Shown: positions 4,770 to 6,877 of the stretch, one piece after another
Layout of the letters: every line of letters begins with the position of its first letter
How positions within the stretch are numbered: the stretch's first letter is position 1
Virus record (IMG/VR): IMGVR_UViG_3300010970_000118
Span: 1 to 33,298 of that record
Source of the DNA: a virus
DNA length: 33,298 nt
Direction: 5' to 3' (one strand)
Notes under the pieces: model-generated
Told to the model about the DNA's origin: nothing
The model's database searches: none
The model's input: only the letters and a program-made list of their open reading frames with translations
Position numbers and translations under genes: made by a program

Positions 4770-4784
4770 TCAGAATTGCATTTG

Positions 4785-4858
4785 CGATCCGTACGGGACT
4801 TGAACCCGTGACCTCTACCGTGACAGGGTAGCGAACTAACCAACTATTCTAACGGACC
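4785..4858 (-). tRNA. trnD: tRNA-Asp (anticodon GTC)
   Basis: Folds by hand into a complete cloverleaf of 74 bases. The acceptor GGTCCGT pairs with ACGGATC, discriminator base G (correct for Asp), anticodon stem CTACC/GGTAG around loop CTGTCAC, T arm ACGGG-TTCAAGT-CCCGT. CCA is not encoded. The D stem has a T-G wobble. It lies 4 bases downstream of tRNA-Asn and is probably cut from one precursor. It decodes GAY codons. Confidence 0.93.
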
Positions 4859-4862
4859 TTTG

Positions 4863-4935
4863 CTGGGGTGGCAGGTATCGATCCTGCGACATTCGAATTA
4901 ACAGTTCGACGCTCTACCATCTGAGCTACACCCCA
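4863..4935 (-). tRNA. trnN: tRNA-Asn (anticodon GTT)
   Basis: A 73-base cloverleaf: acceptor TGGGGTG/CACCCCA, discriminator G, anticodon stem TCGAA/TTCGA around CTGTTAA (anticodon GTT), T stem GCAGG/CCTGC. CCA is not encoded. The T loop reads ATCGATA, so the almost invariant T at position 54 is A; this is unusual and may slightly weaken the T-loop fold. It begins 8 bases after the subtilase stop codon, so it is transcribed with that gene. Confidence 0.92.
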
Positions 4936-4943
4936 TTGTTCTC

Positions 4944-5741
4944 TTAATTAGAGAGAACAGTTACCATCTTTGTGGATGGAACAACCGACTTCCAGTTTGC
5001 TGCAGTTGCTGCAGTTGCTGCAGATGTAGTAAATGGAACAGAACCAAACCAAGGAGAAACAGCCTTCATTGTGGCAGTCTTGTCTTTATTTGATAATGTA
5101 GCAATAATCTTTGCGCTTTGCTGATGGTATGAAGCCTGTCCCGTAGAACCAACAGAAATAACATCTGAAAGGCATGCTGGATATTGTAAAGGCTTCTTAT
5201 TATCATTTCCTGCTGCTGCAAGAACTGGAATATTTAATGCTTTTAGCGAAGCAACTAATGATTTAATTGATGAATCCATTACTCCCACAGAGCCACCTGC
5301 TGCAGAGATTCTACACTCACCAATCTTAGCATTTGAGTTTGTTAGGTTATAGGAAAATGAAACTGCAGAAACATTAGATGTGTTTGAGTTAGTCCAAGTC
5401 AAAGCTTTTACAAAATCTGAACCATCTAAAGTTGTAATGCTTCCCTTTGCTGAAACTTCTTCTGTCTGAATAAGAACTAGCGTTGCTGATGCATTTTGCT
5501 CACGAGCAATATTTGCCATAACTGTTCCATGGTTTACTGCATCAGTACCCATTCCTGGCTTAGGTGTTGCCTTATTGACACACTTATCAACTGCAAGACA
5601 GACAAACTCAACCGATCCAGAAATCTTTGATACATCAAAATAGCTATCGATGATTACAATTCGTTCACCCACTGCTGCTTGTGATTGTACTGGTACTACA
5701 ACTGAAAACAATACTGCTACTAGTGCTACGATCTTCTTCAT
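4944..5741 (-). CDS. Secreted subtilisin-like (S8) serine protease
   Basis: A 265-residue precursor from the ATG at 5741, chosen because AAGGA lies five bases before it; an in-frame ATG at 5756 has no ribosome site. A Sec signal peptide (about 1-23: KKIVALVAVLFSVV...QSQAA) is followed directly by a compact S8 domain. The catalytic residues are all present: D32 in V-I-I-D-S-Y, H71 in V-N-H-G-T, oxyanion N179 in A-A-A-G-N-D, and S240 in F-T-T-S-A-A. No propeptide or wall anchor is evident. It should be exported and cut proteins at the cell surface. It sits between an Ntn-hydrolase and the tRNAs plus endolysin, pointing to a late role in breaking the surface layer or maturing secreted phage proteins (inference). 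The GTSxAxP motif is degenerate after Ser. Confidence 0.85.
   Translation of the reverse strand: MKKIVALVAVLFSVVVPVQSQAAVGERIVIIDSYFDVSKISGSVEFVCLAVDKCVNKATPKPGMGTDAVNHGTVMANIAREQNASATLVLIQTEEVSAKGSITTLDGSDFVKALTWTNSNTSNVSAVSFSYNLTNSNAKIGECRISAAGGSVGVMDSSIKSLVASLKALNIPVLAAAGNDNKKPLQYPACLSDVISVGSTGQASYHQQSAKIIATLSNKDKTATMKAVSPWFGSVPFTTSAATAATAANWKSVVPSTKMVTVLSN
4997..5023. repeat. Three tandem 9-bp copies inside the subtilase gene
   Basis: TTGCTGCAG is repeated three times exactly on the plus strand. On the coding strand it encodes the A-A-T repeats just after the active-site serine, in the part that normally reads M-A-A-P. The repeat looks like a slippage expansion and could vary in copy number without breaking the frame. 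Confidence 0.8.
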
Positions 5742-5757
5742 TTTATTCCTTTTCATT

Positions 5758-5952
5758 TTACGATATCATCAATCTGACGACATGACAACATGGGTCTCCA
5801 CCTTGGTCCCACTCTTCAATCTCTTCTTCACTCATGTATTCGTATCCACCATCATGAGTATTGCAATAAGGATCTGAAATCCATCCTCTTTCAATACCGT
5901 TTGAAAGCCAGATACCAAACTCTTGATCTTCTACGGATAATTCTTCGTTCAT
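5758..5952 (-). CDS. Small acidic Cys/His-rich phage protein
   Basis: A 64-residue very acidic protein (Glu-rich 40-48) with C30-x2-H33 and C55-C56-H57, a possible zinc site, and a central SDPYCNTHDGGYEYMSEEE stretch that I believe recurs in actinophages. Function unknown. Its ATG lies only six bases after a TATACT -10 box, with a perfect TTGACA 17 bases further up, so its mRNA probably begins at the start codon itself (leaderless), a form that actinobacterial ribosomes translate well. Confidence 0.82.
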   Translation of the reverse strand: MNEELSVEDQEFGIWLSNGIERGWISDPYCNTHDGGYEYMSEEEIEEWDQGGDPCCHVVRLMIS

Positions 5953-5958
5953 ATATTA

Positions 5959-5987
5959 AGTATATCCTTAAACACTTACAATGTCAA
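5959..5987 (-). promoter_or_regulatory. Consensus sigma-70 promoter, leaderless start
   Basis: Minus strand: TTGACA (5982-5987), 17-base spacer, TATACT (5959-5964). The ATG at 5952 starts six bases later, where transcription should begin. The promoter lies in the last codons of the Ntn-hydrolase gene and should also serve the subtilase and tRNAs downstream. Confidence 0.75.
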
Positions 5988-6498
5988 CTGGACCCATGCA
6001 GGATGGGCTAAACTTTATTGCTGCTGATACTGCAGAATTAACACGATTTCTGGCATTTTTTTGCTTATCCGTAGCATATAAAACACCATATGCATACTCA
6101 GCTCCAGAACCCATTGCAAGATAAGGCAATGTATATTTAGATAAAGACATGTCTGCAGAACTGTGCTCATAGATCTGTCCACGAACACAAATAATTAAAC
6201 CAAGATCTCCGTCTTTAGATGTATCAACCCAAAAATCATTATAAAATTCTTTAAGTTCTTTAATAAATTTAGTCTGCATAAACTTATCAGTATCTTTAAT
6301 GTTTGGAGCGGTTGGGTGGAAGTTGTATCTGATTCTTTCGCCATCCATTGATCCAGCATACCCAATAAGGTATGGGCCAATCTTCCAAACTTTTGGGGCA
6401 TCTAATGCTAGAATAGTACCATCGTCTGAAGCACCACGGTCTCCTGCCATAAATATTTTATTGTTTACTTCATCACGAACTACAGCAATACAAGTCAT
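5968..6498 (-). CDS. Proteasome-beta/HslV-like Ntn hydrolase
   Basis: A 176-residue protein close to HslV length. Removal of Met1 would expose T2 (M-T-C-I-A-V-V) as the N-terminal nucleophile. The other proteasome-type residues fit: D20 in M-A-G-D-R-G-A-S (Asp17 equivalent), K36 in A-P-K-V-W-K-I (Lys33), the G-Y-A-G-S turn, and A-M-G-S-G-A-E-Y-A-Y-G (Ser129 region). This predicts an Ntn threonine protease or a relative (Anbu/phage proteasome-like). No partner ATPase such as HslU is in the window; it may use the host Mpa/ARC or act alone. It has a near-perfect promoter and an AGGAGGGG ribosome site, so high expression is expected. Confidence 0.8.
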   Translation of the reverse strand: MTCIAVVRDEVNNKIFMAGDRGASDDGTILALDAPKVWKIGPYLIGYAGSMDGERIRYNFHPTAPNIKDTDKFMQTKFIKELKEFYNDFWVDTSKDGDLGLIICVRGQIYEHSSADMSLSKYTLPYLAMGSGAEYAYGVLYATDKQKNARNRVNSAVSAAIKFSPSCMGPVDIVSV

Positions 6499-6528
6499 GC
6501 AGAAACCCCTCCTAGAGATATACCTTTA

Positions 6529-6557
6529 AGTATACCAGCTCCAGAAGGGGCTGTCAA
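6529..6557 (-). promoter_or_regulatory. Strong consensus sigma-70 promoter for the Ntn-hydrolase gene
   Basis: Minus strand: TTGACA (6552-6557), exact 17-base spacer ending TGG (extended -10), TATACT (6529-6534). It is followed by TAAAGGTATA and the ribosome site AGGAGGGG, seven bases before ATG at 6498. It lies in the gap after the holin gene and starts a new unit toward the subtilase, tRNAs and lysin. Confidence 0.82.
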
Positions 6558-6577: not shown

Positions 6578-6877
6578 TTATGCTAGCTTTGACTTTGCTC
6601 TGCGCTTTTCAACAGCAACATCCTGTACAGTTACTGCATTTTTATCTGTAGTAGAAAATGCTGCATTAATTTCATCTCTTGTAAGTCTTCCGTCATCCAT
6701 AAATGCACGAGCCAACTTTTCTACAACAACTGCTACTGCACTAAGGCCTGCAACTGTCATTGCTTTTGCTACTGAGATTCCTGCAATTGCACCTGCTCCA
6801 ATTACTGCTAATGCATTTGCTGCAAATACTGCAACAATACGCATAAGGATATTCCAAATATTTGTTATACTGTTCAT
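6578..6877 (-). CDS. Holin
   Basis: A 99-residue protein with two hydrophobic segments (about 8-28 IWNILMRIVAVFAANALAVI and 30-52 AIAGISVAKAMTVAGLSAVA), then a polar domain with D-D-G-R-L-T-R-D-E-I-N-A-A-F and a basic tail. This layout matches the common actinophage holin type with an EF-hand-like D-x-G-x-[LI]-x-x-[DE]-E-I motif. It would form the inner-membrane lesion that lets the endolysin out. The ribosome site GAGAGGAG lies five bases before the ATG; the 59-residue membrane gene ends just before it. Confidence 0.82.
   Translation of the reverse strand: MNSITNIWNILMRIVAVFAANALAVIGAGAIAGISVAKAMTVAGLSAVAVVVEKLARAFMDDGRLTRDEINAAFSTTDKNAVTVQDVAVEKRRAKSKLA

Follow-up and report, generated by a model that had tools for sequence, protein, structure and literature searches.

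The window analysed here is a stretch of viral DNA of 33,298 nucleotides (IMG/VR record IMGVR_UViG_3300010970_000118), taken at its full length. Its minus strand carries a gene for a proteasome-like Ntn (threonine) hydrolase, preceded by a consensus-like promoter that is embedded in a putative RNA hairpin (Table 1). In the clade to which the phage belongs the gene order is holin-like genes, hydrolase, a 64-aa acidic protein, a fast-evolving subtilase-like protein and endolysin. A preliminary description of this DNA gave no strand for the gene; the strand is the sole correction to its description of gene and promoter.

Table 1. Features at the hydrolase locus (positions in the window).
Feature	Positions	Strand	Remarks
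Holin-like membrane protein, just upstream of the hydrolase	6578..6877	-	Stop codon 20 nt before the -35 box
-35 box TTGACA	6552..6557	-	With the -10 box, at least 10/12 in 48 of 50 distinct relatives
Hairpin 5′ arm AGCCCCTTCTGGAG	6539..6552	-	In the promoter spacer, plus the last -35 base; fold, covariation
-10 box TATACT with TG extension	6529..6534	-	Near the hairpin apex; sequence, relatives, fold
Hairpin 3′ arm CTCTAGGAGGGGTT	6504..6517	-	Holds the Shine-Dalgarno sequence; fold, covariation
Shine-Dalgarno sequence AGGAGG	6508..6513	-	9 nt 5′ of the ATG; sequence, opening cost
Proteasome-like Ntn (threonine) hydrolase, 176 aa	5968..6498	-	phrog_1040 match, alignment, predicted fold
64-aa acidic protein, directly downstream	5758..5952	-	Neighbour in 78 of 80 close relatives; 11/12 promoter at 5987-5959

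The terminase and the DnaE polymerase show 53% and 55% identity, respectively, to proteins of Streptomyces phages of the Stanwilliamsviridae kind, and judged by these sequences the phage is a relative of that group. This identity, together with a WhiB gene in the window, makes it very probable that the phage infects an actinobacterium. The sequence search with the hydrolase returned no Streptomyces phage among the groups named. Hundreds of related contigs from lake actinophages, a group abundant in fresh water, carry the hydrolase.

A number of observations concern the neighbouring genes. The 64-aa acidic protein contains Cys residues, and in some relatives its gene also follows the M78 or phrog_2696-type genes that are swapped into the locus (see below). 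Its promoter ends 7 nt 5′ of the ATG, which suggests a nearly leaderless mRNA. The subtilase-like secreted protein (4944-5756, minus strand) has about 33% identity among close relatives and a dN/dS of about 0.5; Asp37, His76, Asn184 and Ser245 were found in all 39 distinct aligned sequences, and from these alignments it looks like a real, fast-evolving subtilisin adjoining the endolysin. In one relative its place is occupied by the protein encoded at L027:2352-3560 (IMGGENASGDPKV...SGALIEPRIVLTAAHC), which appears trypsin-like by eye and has no PHROG match. Genes for tRNA-Asp and tRNA-Asn (4784-4935, minus strand) lie between the endolysin and the subtilase-like gene.

The hydrolase open reading frame is not a chance one, given that it matches phrog_1040 ('peptidase HslV family') over residues 1-175 with E=4e-21 in a profile search and that relatives are encoded on more than 500 viral stretches. 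The same profile was matched by all 74 aligned relatives. The protein begins MTCIAVV and contains stretches reading MTCIAVVRDEVNNKIFMAGDRG...DAPKVWK...AMGSGAEYAYG. Thr2, Asp20, Lys36 and the GSGAE motif (130-134) are at the positions given in the preliminary description; Gly46 and Gly-Ser-Gly 130-132 are further key residues. The match to the Pfam Proteasome family was sub-threshold (17.8 bits, gathering score 22.4), and the HslV equivalog cut-offs were not reached (15.0 against 157.75 bits and 14.2 against 137 bits). A profile built from 74 divergent relatives of the hydrolase (A5) detected Thermotoga HslV (1.4e-13), BPH (2e-10) and PrcB (4e-6) among PDB sequences. The same alignment served as input for AlphaFold2, which predicted with a pLDDT of 92.5 a four-layer Ntn fold of HslV/beta type having a short helix at 53-59 and a long one at 70-88. 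The best PDB folds for this model were BPH (TM 0.79) and HslV (TM 0.70-0.77).

Conservation of the active site was assessed in an alignment of 92 divergent relatives, most of them at 20-35% identity. The nucleophile is Thr or Ser in every one (Thr in 89, Ser in 3), Asp20 is kept in 92, Lys36 in 90 and Gly46 in 88. Homologs without Thr2, Asp or Lys had been named beforehand as evidence that would speak against an active protease; with these counts catalysis is not refuted. T2, D20, K36 and G46 correspond to the residues expected of a proteasome-like Ntn hydrolase, which in proteasome numbering are a Thr or Ser at the N-terminus, Asp17, Lys33 and, for the oxyanion, Gly47. Met immediately precedes the nucleophile in 92 of 92 relatives and a cleaved propeptide of the PrcB type is absent, which fits exposure of the nucleophile by methionine aminopeptidase. 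Thus the earlier proposal of an Ntn hydrolase with HslV/proteasome-beta fold and an intact Thr-Asp-Lys site in an actinophage is supported, and we regard the assignment as firm.

The hydrolase has a median dN/dS of 0.059; the large terminase has 0.080, the endolysin 0.22 and the neighbouring subtilase-like gene 0.50. These loci were selected by the hydrolase gene, so that the comparison with other genes is somewhat biased. For the same reason an apparent excess of hydrolase identity over that of the terminase was discarded: in loci chosen by the terminase the two proteins show similar identity (79-90% and 82-92%). We therefore relied on dN/dS, by which measure the hydrolase gene appears to be under purifying selection stronger than that on the terminase.

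Members of the family are also encoded by phages and prophages of Salmonella, Vibrio, Paenibacillus, Mesorhizobium and others, and relatives are located on Rhizobium, Sinorhizobium, Streptomyces and Bacillus plasmids. A scan of cellular genomes with the single protein found no relative; with a looser alignment nine loci were found. More distant members are present in DSL-LC01 and Pumpernickel, both actinophages, and the mere occurrence of proteasome-like genes in such phages is therefore no novelty. Phylogenetically, the window clade forms a well-supported, long-stemmed branch (1.7 changes per site) outside the main radiation, at about 20-35% identity to outside members. Two tandem 'peptidase HslV family' genes were seen in Aeromonas phage 2L372X (L089:5001-5552 and L089:5570-5963). 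Three homologs of Vibrio and Pseudoalteromonas phages (L087, L088, L090) are extended at the C-terminus by about 110-210 aa, and their genes lie directly downstream of PhoH; they resemble the RPC of Fuchs et al. (PMC8665760).

Phage-borne proteasome homologs, PPH and AAH, were described by Fuchs, Alva and Lupas in 2021 (PMC8665760), who found neither a function nor an AAA+ partner for them. AAH homologs occur chiefly in alphaproteobacteria and Actinobacteria, and in phages too, and no Actinobacteria-specific phage with AAH was found (PMC8665760). The plasmid relatives recall this distribution, the likeness being to AAH as described. The hydrolase shares with PPH and AAH the Thr-Asp-Lys site, the lack of a propeptide, a compact HslV/BPH-like core, occurrence in tailed phages and prophages and, in the contigs scanned, the absence of a linked AAA+ gene. 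It differs, as far as comparison with the descriptions goes, in being a divergent actinophage sub-branch, with a length of 176 aa. PPH is described as having about 140 aa and no second helix, H2 (PMC8665760); the model of the hydrolase has the short helix 53-59 and the long helix 70-88. A promoter embedded in a hairpin is not described in that paper. To BPH (5ovs/5ovt/5ovu) and HslV (1m4y, 6kui) the likeness lies in the predicted fold (TM 0.70-0.79) and the nucleophile triad; however, structural identity is 16-21%, the scores are far below the HslV equivalog cut-offs and no HslU was found in the related contigs scanned, which may be incomplete. With PrcB the protein shares the superfamily fold and the triad, but it has no propeptide, is shorter, matches the profile more weakly and lacks prcA/mpa context. 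Within the proteasome-like family the hydrolase thus falls into the known branch carried by phages, which is closer to HslV/BPH than to actinobacterial PrcB.

The promoter (TTGACA-17-TATACT, 6557-6529, minus strand) scores 11/12 and has an extended TGn element. By chance a window of this length should contain about 1.3 sites as good as this; it contains six, each of them on the coding strand. As a promoter scoring at least 10/12 is kept in 48 of 50 distinct upstream regions of relatives while the spacer diverges, the consensus-like promoter noted earlier is borne out. The ribosome site had been called almost ideal. The AGGAGG sequence is indeed real (6513-6508), but on any transcript coming from upstream it would lie inside a hairpin.

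This hairpin is formed by AGCCCCTTCTGGAG and CTCTAGGAGGGGTT, which pair over 14 positions, G-U pairs included. When the 47 gene starts of the window are compared, that of the hydrolase has by far the strongest predicted fold, at -34.7 kcal/mol and z -5.4 (next best values, -20.6 kcal/mol and z -3.1), and the best-hidden ribosome site. The same fold is predicted in 35 of 53 distinct upstream regions, the window included; about 18 do not form it in full, although the promoter is retained in most of these, so the gene can do without the hairpin. Double-sided changes occur at 8 of 12 pairs, 96% of cells pair, none of 500 shuffles reached the observed covariation, and sliding the register destroyed the signal. 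The two arms of one upstream region pair at -23.5 kcal/mol, against -19.4 kcal/mol for arms swapped between relatives (0 of 5000 permutations). A search by the pattern of the promoter half alone found 80 contigs, many of them from the clade already seen and so not independent; 79 have the hairpin, and one match looks random. Behind these 79 hairpins lies the hydrolase in 78 cases (77 called, one cut off) and a methyltransferase-like gene in one. No Rfam family matched the hairpin.

The positions of the arms suggest how the hairpin may act. Because the 5′ arm precedes the -10 box, RNA started at the hydrolase promoter cannot contain it. The upstream ORF ends -5 to 20 nt from the -35 box in relatives, and transcripts reading through would therefore as a rule include the hairpin in full. 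The predicted cost of opening the Shine-Dalgarno sequence is 15.5 kcal/mol on read-through RNA and 2.5 kcal/mol on RNA from the gene's own promoter (median of 35); for AGGAGG in the window the values are 15.5 and 2.7 kcal/mol. On these predictions the hairpin is probably a translational lock on read-through RNA. In phage T4, hairpins sequestering the ribosome-binding site are combined with internal late promoters at genes e, soc and I-TevI (PMC3014915, PMC2988022). The arrangement predicted here resembles theirs in that the Shine-Dalgarno sequence is paired on read-through RNA and free on own-promoter RNA, which lacks the 5′ arm, and the pairing is kept through compensatory change. It differs in that the promoter follows the sigma70 consensus and not that of T4 late promoters, with its -10 box near the hairpin apex, and in that the gene encodes a proteasome-like hydrolase in an actinophage. 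The SAS/ESAS elements of cluster K mycobacteriophages, which occur in 11-19 copies built on a constant motif of 13 bp (PMC3203893), are likewise inverted repeats by translation starts in actinophages; the window hairpin, in contrast, stands alone among the 47 starts, and the SAS motif GGGATAGGAGCCC was not found in the window.

Two other explanations of the inverted repeat were considered. It could mainly be a terminator of the holin operon that overlaps the promoter, in which case the outcome, insulation of the hydrolase gene, would be identical. The stem is rich in GC, has 12-15 pairs and in many relatives runs into a TTT, which is compatible with this, and with the upstream stop codon so near the -35 box there is no room for a separate terminator. 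On the other hand, the T-tract is not conserved (for example, GGGCTCTGTCATG in L075 and GGGCTTCATCATG in L318), G-U pairs are common and the Shine-Dalgarno sequence is inside the stem, and we consider this explanation a good deal less probable than a lock on translation. An operator for a dimeric regulator would account for a repeat centred on the -10 region. It would, however, be expected to keep its sequence, whereas the arms vary among relatives and what is kept is their complementarity, G-U pairs included; such an operator is therefore improbable.

The hydrolase gene does not seem to be a constant part of these genomes. Of 19 relatives that were selected by terminase and extend far enough downstream, 11 have it 4-5 kb downstream of the terminase, and in 8 none was found within 10 kb. 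In two relatives (L287:19008-19397 and L290:19460-19846) it is replaced by an M78/IrrE-type metallopeptidase (HELFHA/HEIFHA) behind a hairpin promoter of the same type, and in L300 the slot holds a 229-aa phrog_2696-type protein. In three further loci an extra gene precedes the hydrolase and does not replace it: a methyltransferase-like gene in L013 and L027, and in L248 a 230-aa protein that by eye is a phrog_2696-type relative. An assignment of the 230-aa slot gene (L300/L248) as a 2OG oxygenase was abandoned, having no Pfam support; phrog_2696 was the sole match. The enzymes found in the slot are thus the proteasome-like hydrolase, the metallopeptidase, and the methyltransferase-like and phrog_2696-type proteins. 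The swapped genes stand behind like hairpins. Though few (two M78, two methyltransferase-like and two 230-aa-family loci), these cases suggest that the slot serves accessory expression and not lysis. Tentatively, one may picture a hairpin-locked, self-promoting slot between holin and endolysin in which unrelated enzymes swap or join, the hydrolase being a takeover or counter-defence protease shut off from late read-through.

In other phages the hydrolase has other neighbours, namely PhoH, ribonucleotide reductase (RNR) with thymidylate synthase, or terminase, portal and prohead protease (several labels assigned by eye). None was accepted as a partner: PhoH (6 loci) and the terminase, portal and prohead-protease genes are not common to the window's clade, and RNR and thymidylate synthase, which occur in large Vibrio, Aeromonas and T5-like phages, are absent beside the window-clade gene. 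The lack of a constant neighbour speaks against the protein being a component of a single conserved machinery of phages.

As to the activity of the protein, the preliminary description had connected it with the host proteasome, as a replacement for its beta subunits or a poison subunit. Many Actinobacteria have PrcBA, the phage very probably has an actinobacterial host and the fold belongs to the same superfamily. This connection found no support: both profile and fold are nearer to HslV/BPH than to PrcB, and the PrcB propeptide is missing. Furthermore, many phages and prophages with a member of the family belong to bacteria that generally have no PrcBA; most of the hosts concerned, among them Salmonella, Vibrio, Paenibacillus and Mesorhizobium, are not known to possess it. 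Joining, replacing or poisoning host PrcB is thus unlikely as a general role, and for the window protein we give it very little credence. A second candidate, suggested by HslV being the closest solved relative by profile, is a protease working with an AAA+ unfoldase of host or phage (HslU-, ClpX- or Mpa-like). Linked ATPases, proposed earlier as a feature to look for in relatives, did not appear as AAA+ unfoldases: in 14 long related contigs, which may be incomplete, a scan with AAA_2 (PF07724) gave no match. Weak AAA (PF00004) matches were rejected as unfoldases; they are short partial P-loops in ORFs of 253-292 aa, and the representative checked is APS-kinase-like. These results agree with PMC8665760, where Actinobacteria are not listed as having HslV and these families are given no AAA+ that co-occurs with them, and cooperation with an unfoldase is accordingly doubtful.

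The main rival is a non-proteolytic Ntn enzyme, such as an amidohydrolase, a transferase or a connectase-like ligase, whose substrate would be one particular peptide or small molecule. Not all proteasome-like proteins are proteases, connectase being a specific ligase (PMC8665760), and the phage branch is strongly diverged. The predicted model, however, has an ordinary HslV/BPH-like core and lacks the S3/S4 helical insertion typical of connectase, which leaves this activity unlikely, if less so than dependence on an unfoldase.

The explanation we favour, with a probability of roughly 0.55, is that the gene encodes an active N-terminal-threonine hydrolase, accessory and host-directed, whose expression is insulated by the hairpin promoter. 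Host methionine aminopeptidase would remove Met1 and expose Thr1, which Asp19 and Lys35 (mature numbering) would activate. Its most likely assembly is a small homo-oligomer of the HslV/BPH kind. As our best guess, the protein may act without an unfoldase as a peptidase on host proteins, possibly ones of defence or regulation, rather than as a component of lysis or of the capsid. On RNA reading through from the holin operon the ribosome site would be hidden by the hairpin; RNA started at the hydrolase promoter would have no 5′ arm and hence be translated. The activity, the ring, its substrates and the regulation and timing are what we infer; the sequences themselves show the family, the kept active site and promoter, the purifying selection, the fold (as a prediction), and the covariation of the hairpin with the placement of its arms.

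Phage-borne proteasome homologs are widespread, and here one of them has a probable expression lock of its own, supported by covariation. Such a lock suggests that synthesis at the wrong time does harm, or else that the protein acts early and on the host. The occasional swap for a metallopeptidase provides a comparison that makes the question of which host protein must be cut a testable one. The type of control known from T4 gene e would extend to actinophages, with a promoter of sigma70 type.
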